Origin: Planctomycetaceae bacterium
GTDB taxonomy: Bacteria; Planctomycetota; Phycisphaerae; Phycisphaerales; Zrk34
Direction of reading: 5' to 3'
DNA length: 64,000 bases
Assembly (NCBI GenBank): GCA_002685935.1
Contig: NYZD01000175.1
Location: forward strand, 1-64,000
Numbering within the stretch: the stretch's first letter is position 1; each line of letters starts with the position of its first letter. Under the pieces are notes generated by a model. That model searched no databases. It was not told the origin of the DNA and worked only from the letters and a program-made list of their open reading frames with translations. The position numbers and the translations under genes are program-made. Shown here in pieces: positions 38,592 through 48,416 of this stretch.

Positions 38592-39134
38592 ATGAACACG
38601 TCGTCGGCGAACCCCTTCACGCTACTGGGACTGCAACCCCGATTCGATCTGGACCCGCAGCAGTTACAGCGCGCCTTCCTCAAGGCCGGCGCCGCCAACC
38701 ACCCCGATCGTTTCACCGACCCCGACGAACAAGACGAAGCCGTCCGCCGCTCCGCGCAGATCAACGCCGCCCACCGTCAACTCAAGGATCCCCTCGACCG
38801 CGCTCAGATCCTGCTCGACCTCCTTGGCTCATCCAACCAGACCGACGGTCAGGCCCTGCCCGACGGCTTCCTGTTCGAGATGCTTGAAATCCGCGAACAG
38901 GTGAGCGACGCCCAGGACGCCGACAACCAACCCCAACTCGAGCAACTCAAACAGTGGGCCCAACAACAGCGTGATCAGCACTTGAAGACCATCGCCCAAC
39001 ACTTTGATGACGCCCTCGCCGCCAATACGCTAACCGACCCCGTCGCCCAGCAGATCAACATCCAACTCAACGCCCTGCGCTACATCGAACGCATGATTGA
39101 ACAGCTCGACCCCGACCACAGCGATCTGCCGTAA
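38592..39134 (+). CDS. hscB: Co-chaperone HscB-like J-domain protein
   Basis: A 180-residue protein with an N-terminal J domain (8-78), HPD at 37-39 and NPFTLLGLQPRFDLD at the start, which is characteristic of HscB rather than DnaJ. The C-terminal part (about 95-175) is a three-helix bundle that binds the scaffold IscU in HscB proteins. It should stimulate an Hsp70 during iron-sulfur cluster transfer. No other isc or suf gene is in the window, so it is separated from the usual cluster. It lies 39 bases after dnaE. Confidence 0.88.
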   Translation: MNTSSANPFTLLGLQPRFDLDPQQLQRAFLKAGAANHPDRFTDPDEQDEAVRRSAQINAAHRQLKDPLDRAQILLDLLGSSNQTDGQALPDGFLFEMLEIREQVSDAQDADNQPQLEQLKQWAQQQRDQHLKTIAQHFDDALAANTLTDPVAQQINIQLNALRYIERMIEQLDPDHSDLP

Positions 39135-39155: not shown

Positions 39156-40481
39156 GTGAACGACTATTTCCTTCAAAACGCACTGTGGTTTCTGGCGATG
39201 CCGCTGCTGCTGATCGCCTCGGGCTTCTTCAGCGGCTCCGAAACCGCTCTGTTCAACATGAGCGCCCAACAGCGTCGCCAGTTGCTGCGCGACCGTACCG
39301 TTCTGGCGCGATCCGTCGCCCAACTGTTGCGACATCCTCGCATGCTTCTAATCACGTTGATGTTCGGCAACATGACCATCAACGTGCTCTATTTCGTCGT
39401 CAGTTCCGTACTCCTCTTGAAGCTTAACAAAGCCAGCACCAATCCCGCGGTGTTGTTCGTCGGCACGATGATCCCGCTGTTGCTGATCGTCGCGTTCGGC
39501 GAAGTGCTCCCAAAGATGGTCGCCAACGCCGTCATCATCTCCTGGGTGCGCGTCATCGCGCTGCCCATGCTCATCATTCACCGGACCATCGCGCCATTCC
39601 GCCTCGTCGTCGGCCACGGCGTGATCACGCCTCTCGGACGGCTCTTCCAACCCACCGGCGACCGTGGCGAACTCGCCGCCGATGAACTCGAAACCCTCCT
39701 GCGCCTCTCACAGCAGCGCGGCGTGATCGCCCAGGATGAAATGCGGGTCGTCCGCCAGGTCATGCGCCTCAGCGAGATGACCGTCAGCGACGTCATGATC
39801 CCCCGCGTCGAGATCGATGCGATACCGATCAGCGCCGTCGCCGCCGATGTGCGCGACAGCATTCAGCAAACCCACCGCCTCCGACTGCCTGTGTACGAAA
39901 ATGATCTCGACCACATCACGGGTGTCATTCACACAAAGGAGTTCCTCCTCGCCCACGCCGCGAATGACCAACTCGACATCACCCGCCTCGTCCGCCAGGT
40001 GCGCTTCGTGCCCGAACTGATCCGCGTCGATCGCCTCCTCGAAGATTTCCGTCGCACCAACACCCACATCGCCATCGTCGTCGATGAATACGGCGGCACC
40101 GCCGGGCTCGTCACGCTCAAGGACGTCGCCGAGCGCGTCGTTGGCGACCTCGACATGGATCAGGGCCTCGGTGAAGGCGCCACCCCCACCGTCGAATCCG
40201 TCGAGTCAGGCGTCTGGCGCGCTGATGGACGCCTCAGCGTCCACGACTGGGCCGATGTGTTCGGCTCCGCCCACATCCCCGCCCGAGTCTCGACCGTCGG
40301 CGGTCTTGTCACCGCCCTCATCGGCCGCGTGCCCACCTCCGGTGACACCGTCGCGCTCGGCAATCTCCACATCGAAGTCGAACACGCCTCCGGCGGTCGC
40401 GTCGAGTCCGTACTCCTCCGCGTGCCCCTGGCCGTCAGTGTCAACCGTGGACAGAATGACGAGGGGGTCTTGCCACAATGA
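39156..40481 (+). CDS. CNNM/CBS/CorC_HlyC membrane protein 1
   Basis: A 441-residue membrane protein. CNNM domain (about 8-190) with ASGFFSGSETALFNMS, FGNMTINVLYF and FGEVLPK; a CBS pair (about 205-330) with VMIPRVEID and VVDEYGGTAGLVT; and a CorC_HlyC FAD-like domain (about 345-430). The family is linked to Mg2+/Co2+ efflux or homeostasis. Start is GTG at 39156. It overlaps the second CNNM gene by four bases (ATGA). Intact domain order and typical length. Confidence 0.92.
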   Translation: MNDYFLQNALWFLAMPLLLIASGFFSGSETALFNMSAQQRRQLLRDRTVLARSVAQLLRHPRMLLITLMFGNMTINVLYFVVSSVLLLKLNKASTNPAVLFVGTMIPLLLIVAFGEVLPKMVANAVIISWVRVIALPMLIIHRTIAPFRLVVGHGVITPLGRLFQPTGDRGELAADELETLLRLSQQRGVIAQDEMRVVRQVMRLSEMTVSDVMIPRVEIDAIPISAVAADVRDSIQQTHRLRLPVYENDLDHITGVIHTKEFLLAHAANDQLDITRLVRQVRFVPELIRVDRLLEDFRRTNTHIAIVVDEYGGTAGLVTLKDVAERVVGDLDMDQGLGEGATPTVESVESGVWRADGRLSVHDWADVFGSAHIPARVSTVGGLVTALIGRVPTSGDTVALGNLHIEVEHASGGRVESVLLRVPLAVSVNRGQNDEGVLPQ

Positions 40482-41473
40482 CCACGCCCCAACTCATCAT
40501 GTGGTTTGCCATCGGGGCGCTCGGCCTTATCGGCTCGGCACTGTTCAGCGGGCTCGAAACCGGCATCTACACCCTCAACCGCATCCGACTCCACGTCCTC
40601 GCCCACGCCGGCCAGCCCAACGCCACCGTATTGCAGCGCTTGATCCATCACCCCAACCGCCTGCTCGGCACATTGCTGTTCGGCAACAACATCGCCAACT
40701 ACATGGCCTCCGTCGCGATCACCGCCTTGCTCGCGGACGCCGGCCGCACCGACGCGCAGATCGTGGTCATCAACGCCGTCATCCTCACGCCCCTGCTGTT
40801 CGTGTTCGGCGAAGTCCTGCCCAAAGATCTGTTCCGCAGCCACACCGACACCGCCACCTACCCGTTCGCCCGCCCGCTGTTCGTGACGCAACGACTGCTC
40901 ACCTGGACCGGCCTGCTGCCCCTGGTCGACGGCTTCACCGCGCTGCTCAACCGCATCATCGGCACCCGCGCCGGATTCGGCCGGACCCTCCATCCCCGCC
41001 GCGTCGTCACCGAACTCTTCCGCGAAAGTGCCGGCCAGGGCCTGATCAGCGACTACCAATCGGACATGATCGACCGCGTCCTCCAACACACCCACATGCG
41101 CGTCGCCGACGTGATGATCCCGTGGAATCAGGTCGTCACGCTGCGCACCGGTCAGCCGCTCCAATCCATCACCGACCTTGCCGCTCGCGTCACCCATTCC
41201 AGAATCCCCGCGCTCGATGCCCACGGCACATTCCAAGGCGTCGTCGACGTGATCGACGCCCTACTCAAGGACGCCGACCCCGCCATACCCATCGACTCGC
41301 TGATTCAACCCGTGCCCACCATTCAACATGATCACCCCCTGCCCGACGCACTCGACACACTCCAGCAGAAACAGGCTCCCATGGCCATCGTCATGCGCGA
41401 TCACCACCCCGCCGGTCTCGTCACCCTCAAAGATCTCGTCGAACCCATCATCGGCGACATCGAAATCTGGTGA
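40478..41473 (+). CDS. CNNM/CBS membrane protein 2 (no CorC_HlyC domain)
   Basis: A 331-residue second CNNM protein: membrane domain about 5-180 with GSALFSGLETGIYTLN, LFGNNIANYMASV and FGEVLPKDL, then a CBS pair (about 200-325) ending with a truncated second motif. The CorC_HlyC domain of the upstream gene is absent. ATG overlaps the upstream stop as ATGA. Tandem CNNM genes suggest a heterodimer; that is inference. Confidence 0.88.
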   Translation: MTTPQLIMWFAIGALGLIGSALFSGLETGIYTLNRIRLHVLAHAGQPNATVLQRLIHHPNRLLGTLLFGNNIANYMASVAITALLADAGRTDAQIVVINAVILTPLLFVFGEVLPKDLFRSHTDTATYPFARPLFVTQRLLTWTGLLPLVDGFTALLNRIIGTRAGFGRTLHPRRVVTELFRESAGQGLISDYQSDMIDRVLQHTHMRVADVMIPWNQVVTLRTGQPLQSITDLAARVTHSRIPALDAHGTFQGVVDVIDALLKDADPAIPIDSLIQPVPTIQHDHPLPDALDTLQQKQAPMAIVMRDHHPAGLVTLKDLVEPIIGDIEIW

Positions 41474-41497: not shown

Positions 41498-42151
41498 ATG
41501 GATCCACAAATGCTCCGTGAACGGATCTCCCAATGGGAGAACATGACCGACGCCGACCCCGACAACGCCATGGGATGGTTCTCCCTCGGCGGCGCCTACA
41601 AAGACGCCGAAGAAGGTGAGCAAGCCGCCCGCGCTCTGCGCAAGGCCATTGAACTCGACCCCGGCCTGTCTCGTGCCTACCAACTGCTCGGTCAGGTCCT
41701 CATCAAAGCCGACGCCAAAGATCAGGCCGCCGAAATACTCACTCGTGGCTACACCACCGCCGCCGAACGAGGCGACGTCATGCCTCAGCGCGCCATGGGG
41801 TCCCTGCTCGAAACGCTCGGTCAACCCGTACCCGAGGTGCAATCAAAAACCCCCGCCGCGCCCCCGACCGGCGCCTCCGGTGATTCCATCGTCGATCGCC
41901 GCACCGGCCAGCCCGGCACCCGACTCGACAAACCCCCTCTCCGTGGCCCGACCGGCAAGTTCATCTTCGACCACTACTCCTCGGAAACCTGGCACGAATG
42001 GATCGGCATGGGCACCAAGGTCATCAACGAACTCCGCCTCGACTTCTCCAAGATCGAACATCAGGAACTCTACGACGCCAATATGCTCGAATGGCTCGGC
42101 TTCACCGAAGCCGAAGCCATCGCATACGCCGAGCAGTCCGAGGACGTGTGA
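41498..42151 (+). CDS. TPR protein fused to a C-terminal YggX (Fe(II)-trafficking)-like domain
   Basis: A 217-residue protein. TPR-like helices cover about 20-100. After a Pro/Ala/Thr-rich linker (about 108-145), residues 146-201 match the YggX/Iron_traffic pattern: PPLRGPTGKFIFDHYSSE, TWHEWIGMGTKVINE and HQELYDANMLEWLGF. YggX proteins normally have about 90 residues, with a conserved N-terminal cysteine involved in iron or oxidant protection; that N-terminal portion and the cysteine are absent here. It may bind another protein through TPRs and use the YggX-like part in redox or Fe-S repair, but function is inferred only. Confidence 0.78.
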   Translation: MDPQMLRERISQWENMTDADPDNAMGWFSLGGAYKDAEEGEQAARALRKAIELDPGLSRAYQLLGQVLIKADAKDQAAEILTRGYTTAAERGDVMPQRAMGSLLETLGQPVPEVQSKTPAAPPTGASGDSIVDRRTGQPGTRLDKPPLRGPTGKFIFDHYSSETWHEWIGMGTKVINELRLDFSKIEHQELYDANMLEWLGFTEAEAIAYAEQSEDV

Positions 42152-42225: not shown

Positions 42226-42585
42226 TCAGTCGATCGGCCAGGGCGGCTGCGCCAGCGGTCGAGCCGCCAGGCTCATCAGCGCCCATTCATTGTCATCGCC
42301 CGCGATGCGGTTCGGGTGGATCGCGCCGCACTGCGTACAGCGATGGATCACCGCCCACTCACCGTCACGCTTGACCCACACACCGATCGGTTCCATCGCC
42401 GCCCCGCAGCGAGCGCGGCGATCACCCGGCGCATCATCGACGTGACGACTCCACAGACAGAACGGACAGTGATTGCGATGTCGCGTCCCGTGCGCCTCCT
42501 GGAGCACGTCACGCCGGCAATGCCCGCAGCGGAACGACGCCGGAGCACCGTGCCCGCGTCGCTTCCTGTTTGATTCTCGTGACAA
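42226..42585 (-). CDS. RNHCP domain zinc-ribbon protein
   Basis: A 119-residue protein with paired zinc-ribbon motifs: FRCGHC (18-23), the RNHCPFCLWSRHVD signature (37-50), PGDRRARCG (53-61) and HRCTQCGAIHPNRIAGDDN (81-99). Cysteines 20, 23, 40, 43, 60, 83 and 86 could bind zinc. Function of this domain family is not established. The start is TTG at 42585 with GGGAG five bases upstream. It is convergent with the TPR-YggX gene (74 bases). Confidence 0.88.
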   Translation of the reverse strand: MSRESNRKRRGHGAPASFRCGHCRRDVLQEAHGTRHRNHCPFCLWSRHVDDAPGDRRARCGAAMEPIGVWVKRDGEWAVIHRCTQCGAIHPNRIAGDDNEWALMSLAARPLAQPPWPID

Positions 42586-43032: not shown

Positions 43033-43536
43033 TCAAACACCGCCCGCTACCGGATACTCCACCCGCCAGTCCAACGCCCCGCTCGTGCAATCAATATGCA
43101 CGTGAAAAAACCGCCCGCGGTATTGATGGAATAGCGGGAAGATAATCTCCCGATCCGTGTCCGGAATCGCCAGCCCGCTGATCTCGTCCCACGTATGCCA
43201 ACCCAGCTCCCCCTCATCGAAGCTCATCCGCTCAATCGTCACCGGACGCGTCACTTCATACAGGAAGATCAGCCAGTGTGTCTGCCCCTCGAATGCCGTC
43301 TCACTCACCAGCCCCGTCAAGTGAATGTCGCTGTACTCCAGTTCCAGCAGCACTTCTTCGCGCATCTCCCGCAGCGCGCAGTCCGCCGGCGACTCCCCCT
43401 GCGCCATGTCCAGCTTCCCGCCGATCGGGGAATGCAGACCGCGATTCGGCTGATTCGATCGATGCAGCAGCAACAATCGATCCTGCTCGTCGAACAGGTA
43501 ACACAACACCGCGATCTTGTACGGCAGCGTGGGCAT
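43033..43536 (-). CDS. Nudix hydrolase
   Basis: A 167-residue NUDIX protein. The box runs from about residue 40 to 66: GGKLDMAQGES...REMREEVLLEL. Relative to GX5EX7REUXEEXGU there are two extra residues between Gly and the first Glu and Leu instead of the last Gly. Mg2+-binding REMREE is intact. Substrate cannot be read; a nucleotide diphosphate linked to another group is expected. ATG 43536 was chosen; GTG 43542 is also possible. Confidence 0.85.
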   Translation of the reverse strand: MPTLPYKIAVLCYLFDEQDRLLLLHRSNQPNRGLHSPIGGKLDMAQGESPADCALREMREEVLLELEYSDIHLTGLVSETAFEGQTHWLIFLYEVTRPVTIERMSFDEGELGWHTWDEISGLAIPDTDREIIFPLFHQYRGRFFHVHIDCTSGALDWRVEYPVAGGV

Positions 43537-43574
43537 GGTCACTTCCGCTCCGTGTGATGCACCGGGGCCTGCGC

Positions 43575-43602
43575 AAAAACACGGCGGGCCGAAACCCGCC
43601 GT
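43575..43602 (-). terminator. Intrinsic terminator after atpA
   Basis: ACGGCGGG (43581-43588) pairs with CCCGCCGT (43595-43602), loop CCGAAA, and AAAAA (43575-43579) gives the U tract on the minus strand. It lies 40 bases after the atpA stop and should end the ATP synthase transcript. Confidence 0.7.
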
Positions 43603-43641
43603 TCTCGTCCAATCCGTCTCATTCCCGCGGACGTCGGCACG

Positions 43642-45180
<1,539 letters not shown>

Positions 45181-45263
45181 GCCTGTGCTCCGCGCTGCTC
45201 ACGCCGGTCGCCGCCCATCGACATGCCCGTGCCGCCGGGGGCCAAGGGTCCGTGGGCTGGGGG

Positions 45264-45881
45264 TTATGTCTCTTCATCCATCAACCGGCCCGCATCACTG
45301 CGCACCAGTTCCTGTCCGTGCTCAATCAACTGCCGCCGCATGCGCTTCAATCGCGTTGCCACGGTGCCGTCAATCAGCTTGTCGCCGACGCGAATCTTCA
45401 GCCCGCCCAGCAGTTGTTCATCCACATGCGGGTGCAGCGTCGCCCGACGACCGATCGCTGCGCCGATCCGATCCGCCACACCGTTCAATTGCCCACCATC
45501 CAGCGGCCGAGCCGTGTAGATGTCCACGTCCACCTCGCCGCGCCGATCCTTCACCAGCGCCGCCAAAGCCGTGTGGATCCCCGCCAGGCGATCCAGCCGA
45601 CCCTTGCTGTTGATCACGTGCAGCGATCGATACAAAAGATCACTGATCCGCCCGTGGAAAATCTGTTCAATCGAGTTGGCCCGTCGCTCCGCCGTGATCG
45701 CCTTGCTCGCGAACAACGCCTTTAGCGACGCATCCGCCGCGCACAGATCGACAATCTGCCCCAGCTCGTCCGTCACCTCTGCCAGCGCGCCGCCTTCGTC
45801 CGCCAGATCGAACAGCGCCTCGGCGTACGTGCGGTCCACCGCCTGAGCGATTCCCGGGTTATCCAACGTCGTCTCAGCCAT
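45264..45881 (-). CDS. atpH: F0F1 ATP synthase subunit delta
   Basis: A 205-residue F1 stalk subunit linking F1 to the b subunits. N-terminal AQAVDRTYAEALFDLADEGG (about 12-31) and C-terminal VGDKLIDGTVATRLKRMRRQL are standard OSCP/delta family features. The ATG at 45881 was preferred over GTG 45884 because of its spacing from GGGAA. It lies between atpF and atpA, in normal order. Confidence 0.94.
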   Translation of the reverse strand: MAETTLDNPGIAQAVDRTYAEALFDLADEGGALAEVTDELGQIVDLCAADASLKALFASKAITAERRANSIEQIFHGRISDLLYRSLHVINSKGRLDRLAGIHTALAALVKDRRGEVDVDIYTARPLDGGQLNGVADRIGAAIGRRATLHPHVDEQLLGGLKIRVGDKLIDGTVATRLKRMRRQLIEHGQELVRSDAGRLMDEET

Positions 45882-45905
45882 CACACTTCCCGTCAGGACG
45901 CAATC

Positions 45906-46556
45906 TCAACCCGCGTCTTCAAGCCGACCCAATTCGTTCAGCGATTCGTCGACCAGTCGCTGCGTGTCCGAATCGTCAATCTCACGTTGCAGCACCTTGC
46001 CCGCCACCGCCGTCGCCAGTGAAGCCGCATGGCCATACAAATCCTGCAATGCCTGCTGACGTGCCAGCTTGATGTCATCGGTCGCACGCTCACGCATCCG
46101 TCCGATCTCCGCCTCGATCTCGCTGACCCGCTGAGCGCCCGCCTTGTCCGCATCCGCCCGCGCGTGCTCAATCAGCTTCCGCGCTTCGGCGTGCGCCTCG
46201 GTCAACTTCTGCTGATATTCCGCCAGCGTCTGCTGCGCCGTCTGATTCGCCTGCTCCGCCGCCGCCAGATCGCTGCGCTGCTTCTCCTCGCGTGCCAGCA
46301 ACCCCTTCAAGATGTTCGGCCAGACAAACTTGCTCAACACACCCAACAGGATCAGAAACAACAACAATGTCCACACGAATGTGCCGCTGTCCACGTCAAG
46401 CAGAAAGGGTTGCTCGACATGCGCTTCTTCAGCGCCCTCAGTCGCGCCTTCCGACGTTGCCTGAGTATCCGGCTCCGCCGCGATCAATACCGATCCGCTA
46501 CCGGGCCCCATCAACACGATCACACCCAGCAGCACACATAAGAAATCACGAACCAT
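45906..46556 (-). CDS. atpF: F0F1 ATP synthase subunit b with N-terminal signal-like extension
   Basis: A 216-residue peripheral-stalk subunit. The membrane helix FVWTLLLFLILLGVLSKFVW (about 59-78) and the long charged helix after it are typical. Unlike the usual subunit b (about 156-170), it starts with a hydrophobic signal-like segment (about 4-26) and a Glu/Thr-rich stretch (27-50). Either the extension is cleaved or it spans the membrane a second time. The ATG at 46556 has GGAG upstream. Confidence 0.93.
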   Translation of the reverse strand: MVRDFLCVLLGVIVLMGPGSGSVLIAAEPDTQATSEGATEGAEEAHVEQPFLLDVDSGTFVWTLLLFLILLGVLSKFVWPNILKGLLAREEKQRSDLAAAEQANQTAQQTLAEYQQKLTEAHAEARKLIEHARADADKAGAQRVSEIEAEIGRMRERATDDIKLARQQALQDLYGHAASLATAVAGKVLQREIDDSDTQRLVDESLNELGRLEDAG

Positions 46557-46630
46557 CACAAACTCCTGCGGGGGTTTCCGACCTATTGCTCAAACAGCGC
46601 GGGAACCGACCGATGCCCCAGGAATGATGA

Positions 46631-46891
46631 TCAGACCAGGAATCCCAGGATCACCATTGAGATCACGGCCAAACCTTCGATCAGTGCCGCGGCGATAATC
46701 ATGTTCGTGCCAATCGTGCCGCTGGCCTCCGGTTGACGAGCGATCGCTTCGACCGCGCCTGTTCCGATGCGACCAATGCCTAGGCCCGCGCCGTTCACCG
46801 TCAACCCGAATCCCAAGCCCTTGCCCAGGACCTTCAGGCCGTCGTCGCCGATTAACGTTTGCGCTTCTTGTGCCAATGTCAGCAGACTCAT
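46631..46891 (-). CDS. atpE: F0F1 ATP synthase subunit c
   Basis: An 86-residue rotor protein of two hydrophobic helices joined by the polar loop ARQPEA (51-56). The ion-binding carboxylate is E72 in AALIEGLAVIS. The Gln, Val and Ser/Thr partners expected in Na+-dependent c subunits are not present, so a proton-translocating ring is more likely. Spacing to neighbours is 74 bases (atpF) and 137 bases (atpB). GGGAG precedes the ATG. Confidence 0.97.
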   Translation of the reverse strand: MSLLTLAQEAQTLIGDDGLKVLGKGLGFGLTVNGAGLGIGRIGTGAVEAIARQPEASGTIGTNMIIAAALIEGLAVISMVILGFLV

Positions 46892-47028
46892 AGTCGATGT
46901 CTCCCTGTGCCCGACCCGCGAGCACGCTCATTCAAAGCCGACGATTCACTTTCGTACCCGAGCGATGTCGGCAACCGCGGGGCCGTCTGTCGTCAATCAC
47001 GAGCCAATGCCCGTGTTTGTTTTCAAAG

Positions 47029-47946
47029 TCAATGCTCTGCCGCCGCCTCAACGTGATCATGCTCCTGCTCATCGTGATGAACCGCGCCGGCCGCAATAAA
47101 CAACACCGTCAGGAACGTAAAGATAAACGCCTGTAAGAAGGCCACGAACAACTCCAGCAACGATATCGCCGTCGCACCCAACATCACGACCGCGCCGACC
47201 GCAATCCCCGCCGCTAATACCTTCACCCCCGTGATGATCCCGATCATCGCCGCGATAACCAGATGCCCCGCAACCATGTTCCCGAAAAGACGCATCGCCA
47301 AGACGACGCACTTGATGAACAGTCCCAGCACCTCGAGAAATACCAGAGGCACCGCGATAAATACCATCGGCCACGGCGTCAACGGCACCGGACAGAAATG
47401 CTTGAAATACGCAATGCCCTGCTCGCGGATGCCTACCCCGACAATCATGATCAATGACAAAACTGCCAACGGCCCGGTCACTCCCAGGTTGCTCGTCGCC
47501 GTGCCGCCAATATGGGCCGTCGTGTTCGCAGCCTGATGCCAATCCCCCGTGACGATCCCATCGATGAACCCAAGAATCGCTCCAAACGGCACCATCCCCA
47601 GCAGATTGCAGAACACCACAAAGAAGAACACCGTCCAAACGTAGTAAATATACTTGTCCGTCAGTTTCCCCAGCGTCGGACGCACGATCTCGCTACGAAG
47701 ATACTCACAGATCACTTCAAATATCTGTGACACGCGGCCCTTCGTGATATATGCATCTACCCCGCTGCCGCGCGGCCTGATCCGGGACGCCAGCACCGAG
47801 AACGCCAGCAACACCAGCACCGCCGCAACCAACGCCATCAACATGTGATTGGTCAACCATTCCGTGCCGAACACCTTGTGTGGCAGCACGTGGCCCATCA
47901 GGTGTTCGCTATCGGCGCCAAGTGTCAGGGACCAGCAGGGCTGCAC
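47029..47946 (-). CDS. atpB: F0F1 ATP synthase subunit a
   Basis: A 305-residue membrane subunit with the essential arginine R219 in MRLFGNMVAGH (218-228) and the C-terminal ELFVAFLQAFIFTFLTVLF helix. It begins with GTG preceded by GGGAGGT at ideal spacing and overlaps the AtpI-like gene by 22 bases. A His/Glu-rich tail (VHHDEQEHDHVEAAAEH) may be a planctomycete feature. Confidence 0.95.
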   Translation of the reverse strand: MQPCWSLTLGADSEHLMGHVLPHKVFGTEWLTNHMLMALVAAVLVLLAFSVLASRIRPRGSGVDAYITKGRVSQIFEVICEYLRSEIVRPTLGKLTDKYIYYVWTVFFFVVFCNLLGMVPFGAILGFIDGIVTGDWHQAANTTAHIGGTATSNLGVTGPLAVLSLIMIVGVGIREQGIAYFKHFCPVPLTPWPMVFIAVPLVFLEVLGLFIKCVVLAMRLFGNMVAGHLVIAAMIGIITGVKVLAAGIAVGAVVMLGATAISLLELFVAFLQAFIFTFLTVLFIAAGAVHHDEQEHDHVEAAAEH

Positions 47947-48416
47947 GTGCCCACCTCCCTGGATTCGCCGGAGCCATCATGACCGACGGTCGCTTCCGAC
48001 AGACCAGCCGTGATCGACCGCAGATAATGTTTGAACATGTGCACTTCTACCAACATGATCAACAGATACCATCCCAGCATCCACAACACCGTCGGCAGCT
48101 TCGCATACGTCAGACCCACGACCAGCAACGCCGCGCTGCCCGCGCAGATCGCCAGTCGCACCACCGTACCGGCCAGGATGCAAATCAGAACGCGCGCCAA
48201 GGAGTCACGGCTCGCACGGTAAACCAACACCAGCGAAACCAACGCCGCGATAGAAGTCGCCCCCACCGCCGTCAAGCACGGCACCAAGTGCCCCGACCAA
48301 CCTCTCCATTCAATCAGACCCAGCGAAATCCCAGTCCCCAACAGAACAACCAGGCACAGCCACTGCATCGCGCGTTGCAGGTTGAACGTCGGAATCTTGA
48401 TCTCACTATCGCTCAT
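47925..48416 (-). CDS. AtpI-like ATP synthase assembly membrane protein
   Basis: A 163-residue hydrophobic protein with four predicted helices. Position directly before atpB and small size match the AtpI/AtpR group, thought to assist c-ring assembly or Mg2+ supply. Its stop lies 22 bases inside atpB, so translation is coupled. Sequence similarity within this family is weak; the call depends on context. Confidence 0.65.
   Translation of the reverse strand: MSDSEIKIPTFNLQRAMQWLCLVVLLGTGISLGLIEWRGWSGHLVPCLTAVGATSIAALVSLVLVYRASRDSLARVLICILAGTVVRLAICAGSAALLVVGLTYAKLPTVLWMLGWYLLIMLVEVHMFKHYLRSITAGLSEATVGHDGSGESREVGTCSPAGP

Follow-up and report, generated by a model that had tools for sequence, protein, structure and literature searches.

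The window, by which we mean the whole stretch of 64,000 nucleotides analyzed here, carries at positions 41498..42151 of the forward strand an open reading frame with an ATG start for a 217-amino-acid protein in which a TPR domain is fused to a YggX-like domain that has kept the fold of its family and has none of the four metal ligands of a treble clef. The explanation that we favor, with somewhat better than even confidence, is that the protein is a cytoplasmic two-domain adaptor in which the treble-clef domain can now fold without a metal; the cytoplasmic location, the identity of the lost metal, its replacement by hydrogen bonds and the adaptor role are inferred from the comparisons described below.

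The preliminary description of this DNA had proposed a fusion of TPRs to a YggX-like domain lacking the family's cysteine, and profile searches bore out both points. The Pfam profile PF04362 (Iron_traffic) matched residues 141-207 over profile positions 15-81 of 88 (E = 1.3e-11, 44.5 bits against a cut-off of 27), the C-terminal 96 residues alone matched it with an E value of 2.1e-12, and all 62 domain sequences that we aligned matched it as well (E up to 1). The Pfam profile TPR_17 scored 29 bits against a cut-off of 24.4, and six helices at residues 3-106 (41504..41815, +) matched TPR structures, with residues 1-110 superposing on TPR adaptor and chaperone domains such as those of PcrH/SycD, Sti1 (TPR2B) and CHIP at Z scores of about 15-17. 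This is a common fold, and the 12-23% identity of these domains to the TPR domain of the window protein is uninformative about the partner that it binds. A flexible linker at about residues 113-129 (41834..41884, +), which contains the blocks of lowest pLDDT (79 and 69), leads to the YggX-like domain at about residues 126-217 (41873..42148, +), which was recognized by PF04362, by sequence comparison with YggX structures and by fold. Whereas YggX proper is a stand-alone protein of about 90 residues with a cysteine at position 7, the window protein has Asp133 in the Cys-7 column and scores 43 bits with the NCBIfam YggX equivalog NF003817, below its cut-off of 74. The protein contains no cysteine at all, so that a thiol-redox or otherwise cysteine-dependent mechanism is impossible for this copy.

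It had also been proposed that the YggX-like part spans residues 146-201 and that the N-terminal strand of YggX, which bears the conserved cysteine, was replaced in the fusion by the linker and TPRs. We compared a profile of the fused family, built from the 62 domain sequences, with known structures, and four YggX entries (1t07, 2mzy, 1yhd and 1xs8) were the only matches up to an E value of 1, with E values from 6.9e-17 (1t07) to 3.1e-12. The alignment ran from the very first YggX residues and placed the cysteine column of the fused family on the N-terminal cysteine of YggX. The AlphaFold2 model of the full-length protein (pLDDT 94.5, pTM 0.70) contained strands at residues 130-132 and 139-141, paired as a hairpin, and helices at 150-159, 162-179, 186-200 and 204-215, preceded by the less certain linker. 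When the domain was modeled alone (pLDDT 91.3), the hairpin strand and its partner were present as in the whole-protein model. This domain model superposed on 1t07 with a Z score of 10.8 (rmsd 2.3, 79 residues aligned) and on 1yhd with a Z score of 10.6 (rmsd 3.5, 88 residues aligned, model residues 5..96 on chain residues 1..89); among the 25 chains compared with it, YggX entries alone reached a Z score of 2 or more, and in a Foldseek search YggX entries were the only matches below an E value of 0.01. Thus the match to YggX stood, and the boundary did not, the domain beginning near residue 126-130; replacement of the strand by the linker or TPRs was ruled out by the profile alignment, the full and domain models and the superposition, both comparisons starting from about YggX residue 1. 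To judge from the models and the alignment, the N-terminal strand is kept, with one residue substituted (Asp133) and no strand lost.

The domain is thus the same as that of the solved YggX proteins of Escherichia coli (1yhd), Salmonella (1xs8), Pseudomonas aeruginosa (PA5148, 1t07) and Burkholderia (2mzy) both by profile and by whole-domain fold, and it shares their W-x2-W and INE-x-RL core. YggX has been listed as a treble clef, with solved homologues that are without zinc (PMC4999995), and in the same source ligand loss with retention of the fold is reported for several treble clefs. In the model of the window protein, the knuckle hairpin (130-132 and 139-141) followed by the helix at 162-179 has the layout of a treble-clef zinc finger. 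The four-cysteine relatives carry one CxxC on this knuckle and another where the helix begins; in the window copy, all four ligand positions hold other residues. The former knuckle pair reads D133-R-R-T136 (41894..41905, +) and the former second pair S161-S-E-T164 (41978..41989, +). The Foldseek matches to the domain included no zinc-bound treble clef, from which no difference in fold should be concluded; the treble-clef assignment accordingly draws on the way YggX is classified in print and on how the ligands are laid out. The word tetratricopeptide does not occur in the main text of PMC4999995.

The ligand layout was established by reading the columns of residues 133, 136, 161 and 164 in 126 fused proteins, a number that leaves out 17 members of the stand-alone family f21, two other stand-alone forms (L062 and L065) and two loci with no usable start (L002 and L178). 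The families are f1 (that of the window), f2-f5 and f28 in the order of the window, the remaining f families in its class and the p families elsewhere in the phylum. The sample is nonrandom, since most loci of f2-f21 were part of the best-scoring PF04362 matches listed, and those of f1 and f3 came mostly from a protein search. Most related planctomycete families carry the same TPR fusion with CxxC...CxxC, ligands placed as in a treble clef: all four cysteines were present in every member of f7 (12), f8 (9), f16 (3), f18 (12), p74 (2), p85 (4) and p91 (1), and the single p110 protein has four cysteines with a different spacing. In f10, 10 of 13 proteins have the four cysteines, and the other three read DTSS. 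The order of the window is without the four-cysteine set and mostly has CxxT...SxxT, with CTST in 18 of 23 f2 proteins (the others being one DTST and four near variants), 18 of 22 in f4 (four near variants), all five in f5 and the one in f28. The window's family and its sister f3 mostly have DxxT...[SG]xxT: six of the nine f1 proteins read DTST (the others CTST, CTCT and CSCT), and the eight f3 proteins read DTGT (three), DTST (two), DAGT (two) and DYGT (one), so that aspartate occupies position 1 in 6/9 and 8/8, respectively. The single f20 protein (G031) reads CLSA, which is closer to YggX.

Three forms seen in the course of this survey stand out. In L040 and L045 (both f1) and L175 (f4), the first and third positions alone have kept cysteine (CxxT or CxxS followed by CxxT), a pattern that is possibly an intermediate of ligand loss. 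A four-cysteine fusion from elsewhere in the phylum (L126, genome G723) has a longer knuckle, with C-x4-C in place of C-x2-C. The 17 members of f21 (among them loci L003, L004, L006-L009, L011, L012, L017, L018, L028 and L031) are stand-alone YggX-like proteins in which position 1 is a cysteine and the knuckle and helix are set apart by an inserted stretch of ~13 residues.

We then asked how the ligand states are distributed over the phylogeny, using two trees computed without the four ligand columns, one of 112 rows with SH-aLRT support only and one of 54 rows with a careful search; neither places the root of the ligand series. Both trees follow the taxon groups; the 54-row tree does so with 14 changes for 15 groups, the minimum possible, and recovers as clades both the order of the window (support 99/94) and f1 together with f3 (100/100); the position of the f20 protein is weakly supported (89/72). 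Aspartate at position 1 requires at least six changes on either tree. A single clade of the order and the f10 DTSS proteins was rejected (p-AU = 0.0058), which implies that the four-cysteine set was lost at least twice. The three f10 DTSS proteins lie apart in the free tree, and a single origin for them is allowed (p = 0.067). This second family reached DxxT...SxxS independently. Loss seems to us likelier than gain, because the four-cysteine form is found in most of the families and elsewhere in the phylum and because four ligands in the exact places of a treble clef would be difficult to gain. Taken together, these sequence comparisons point to an ancestral four-cysteine treble clef in the fused family, followed by stepwise and repeated loss of ligands. 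The preliminary description had regarded the fusion as a redox-independent derivative of an iron-protection protein; it is indeed cysteine free, but instead of an origin by loss of the N terminus from a protein of the Cys-7 type, a four-cysteine ancestor is indicated.

Across all ligand states, P147, G153, W165, W168, K174, V175, I176, N177, E178, R180 and L181 are strongly kept, and in the profile alignment much of this invariant or near-invariant core is common to YggX. That the core rather than the ligands has been kept, together with the presence of the TPR domain, suggests partner binding. We propose that the N-terminal TPR domain forms a protein-docking groove joined by the flexible linker to the C-terminal YggX-family treble clef. 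In the fused family, the ancestral domain most likely had a four-cysteine metal site, two ligands on the knuckle and two at the start of the helix. The metal would have been structural; in the four-cysteine forms it could be iron. In the lineage of the window, the ligands would have become Asp133, Thr136, Ser161 and Thr164 while the hairpin, the helices and the W-x2-W / K-V-I-N-E-x-R-L core were kept, and side-chain hydrogen bonds and a helix cap may now hold the knuckle against the helix free of metal. The protein would then work by binding a partner, with its TPR groove and the conserved face of its helix, and not by thiol chemistry or iron carriage.

The fusion is widespread among the relatives of the window. 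A homologue was found in all 41 genomes searched (its own, 8 of the same family and 32 of the same order), and the homologues were full length and 45-67% identical in 39 of the 40 other genomes, the copy in the remaining one (G119) being interrupted by a stop codon. PF04362 was matched in 229 of the 397 genomes of the class, exactly once in 228 of these, and the genome of the window (G000, a draft of 198 contigs, 78.8% complete) likewise has one. A relative is encoded on 359 stretches of a separate collection, of which we kept the best 80; the named close relatives belong to the Phycisphaeraceae and Phycisphaerales and are mostly metagenome assembled, with a few complete chromosomes among them (ZRK34, ZRK32 and syqfu). 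We read the fusion as vertically inherited and usually single copy.

The replacement of cysteine ligands resembles that in the C- forms of ribosomal proteins, and we therefore examined S14, itself a treble clef (PMC4999995), and L36, both of which are among the proteins that occur as C+ and C- pairs (PMC3087516). In those pairs the same change is seen, a four-cysteine zinc site giving way to CxxT...S with the protein kept, and S14 has CxxT...S in the same lineages as the fusion; the pairs, however, are paralogous, whereas the fusion is nonribosomal and usually present in one copy per genome. The two proteins were read in 28 chosen genomes, S14 being found in 26 and L36 in 27. S14 was without CxxC...CxxC in 14/14 genomes of the order, 5/5 of f10 and 1/1 of f8 and kept it in two genomes of f7 and one each of f16, f18, f20 and f21. 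This loss of the S14 zinc site in the same lineages weakly suggests zinc sparing, meaning that a lineage living at low zinc replaced several of its zinc fingers and that the function of the fusion is unchanged from that of the four-cysteine forms. Such a history, which is compatible with a metal-free adaptor, seems to us rather unlikely. In its favor, C- S14 accompanied the reduced domain in 17 of 18 genomes and the four-cysteine domain in only 3 of 7, and L36 was of the C- type in 4 of 27 genomes, all within the order. However, few independent events underlie these counts, the f8 genome and two four-cysteine f10 genomes combine C- S14 with an intact four-cysteine domain, the f20 genome G031 is the reverse case, and L36 keeps its cysteines in f1 and f3, the families whose domain is the most depleted of them. 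L33 was dropped as a third zinc marker, the pattern being readable in 4 of the 28 genomes and CxxT in all of them, which gives no discrimination.

Four genomes of the order have lost the zinc cysteines from S14 (L289, L292, L284 and L291), here in its short form, as well as from L36 (L305, L316, L317 and L323), and these genomes may represent a zinc-sparing lineage. Genome G399 has two S14 genes (L270 and L296), both without zinc cysteines and quite unlike each other; contamination of the draft is possible.

A second alternative, which we regard as improbable, is that the fusion serves in redox-independent iron protection, its YggX-like domain handling or shielding Fe(II) or Fe-S clusters and its TPRs delivering to clients. 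The name of the family and the Fe(II)-related role reported for YggX (PMC11078426) would favor it, as would the near absence of genomes with both a fused and a stand-alone form (the single match in 228 of 229 genomes), as if one took the place of the other. Salmonella YggX, on the other hand, reportedly needs Cys-7, which was described as essential in work from 2003 (via PMC11078426) and is absent here. The remaining argument comes from the neighborhood. The genes of the window run in the order dnaE (from our reading of the open reading frames), hscB, two CNNM-type genes and the fusion, with short gaps, and hscB (38592..39134, +) is genuine, scoring 59.2 bits with TIGR00714 against a cut-off of 46.75. 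In another genome of the window's family, G217, it lies directly upstream of the fusion. In the preliminary description, this hscB gene, three genes upstream, had been taken to point to Fe-S metabolism, but the linkage proved to be unconserved. It was found in two of the six family loci with enough upstream sequence (the window and G217), in none of 31 fused loci of other families (tblastn, E = 1e-5) and in 1 of 80 named loci (the best 80 of the 359 relatives), this one on a contig equal in length to that of G217. HscB itself was above the cut-off in 84 of 397 genomes of the class and in two of the five genomes of the window's family that were searched, and hscB was therefore rejected as evidence of Fe-S metabolism. 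In the genome of the window, which is 79% complete, there was no NifU_N/IscU match and a borderline HscA match, located at a contig end, with 688.8 bits (cut-off 708.6). Beyond the window's family, no widely shared neighbors were found except for small local clusters, so that no partner is suggested, and a scan for promoters and terminators gave nothing above shuffled sequences. With hscB unlinked and no other wide neighbor, the neighborhood lends no support to an Fe-S role, and an iron or Fe-S role of the fusion is not supported.

Less probable still, and in our view doubtful, is a metal switch, in which D133, T136, S161 and T164 would coordinate a hard metal, for instance Mg(II), Mn(II) or Fe(II), through oxygen ligands in place of the four-cysteine zinc or iron site. 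Two lineages arrived at the same polar set (D, T, S and T or S), and a hint of metal physiology is given by the gene directly upstream of the fusion, which encodes a CNNM-type membrane protein (40478..41473, +; PF01595 and CBS; 24-bp gap to the fusion) and is preceded by one for a second protein of CNNM/CorC type (39156..40481, +; PF01595, CBS and CorC_HlyC). A CNNM-type gene is in this place in eight of the nine members of the window's family, the ninth being G217 with its hscB. However, the linkage was found in 0/6 of the f3 loci fetched, despite their having the same aspartate, and f3 has glycine at position 3 in 6/8 proteins and tyrosine or alanine at position 2 in 3/8, which a metal site would hardly tolerate.

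An artefact or chance, either a misjoined reading frame or a spurious profile match, might be feared in a fragmented draft of 198 contigs that is 79% complete, but it is refuted to our satisfaction by the full-length homologues in 39 of 40 other genomes and the 359 stretches that encode a relative.

If the metal-free adaptor is the right reading, it may bear on YggX itself, whose description as an iron-trafficking protein goes back to phenotypes and to a single essential cysteine. Tentatively, and with rather less confidence than we have in the adaptor, we suggest that the YggX family as a whole is a decayed metal-binding treble clef, in which Cys-7 would be the last of four ancestral ligands and not a purpose-built redox or iron residue. 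The planctomycete TPR fusions would then document the whole course from four ligands to none, with two independent arrivals at Asp-Thr-Ser-Thr/Ser; the job common to the family would be to bind a partner independently of metal, and YggX would owe its iron phenotypes to indirect effects. Among the fusions, that cysteine is visibly one of four ligands and whole families do without it, which makes its role directly testable; the fusions also provide a natural series from a metal-stabilized to a metal-free finger. In the open-licence literature, we found no paper containing both tetratricopeptide and YggX and none naming PF04362, and hence no paper on this usually single-copy planctomycete protein, close homologues of which are present in sequenced strains.

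Two observations were made downstream of the fusion. Right after it, on the opposite strand, lies a gene for an RNHCP-domain protein (42226-42585, -; PF12647, E = 7e-39), which adjoins the fusion in two other genomes of the window's family (L034/L187 and L045/L218). Farther on, at 43033-48416 (-), a run of ATP synthase genes ends in atpA and is followed by a NUDIX gene, not by the usual atpG, atpD and atpC. The ATP synthase operon thus looks split, as far as can be judged from the reading of the open reading frames, from which the subunit names were taken, and from a profile match, by which the NUDIX gene was recognized.
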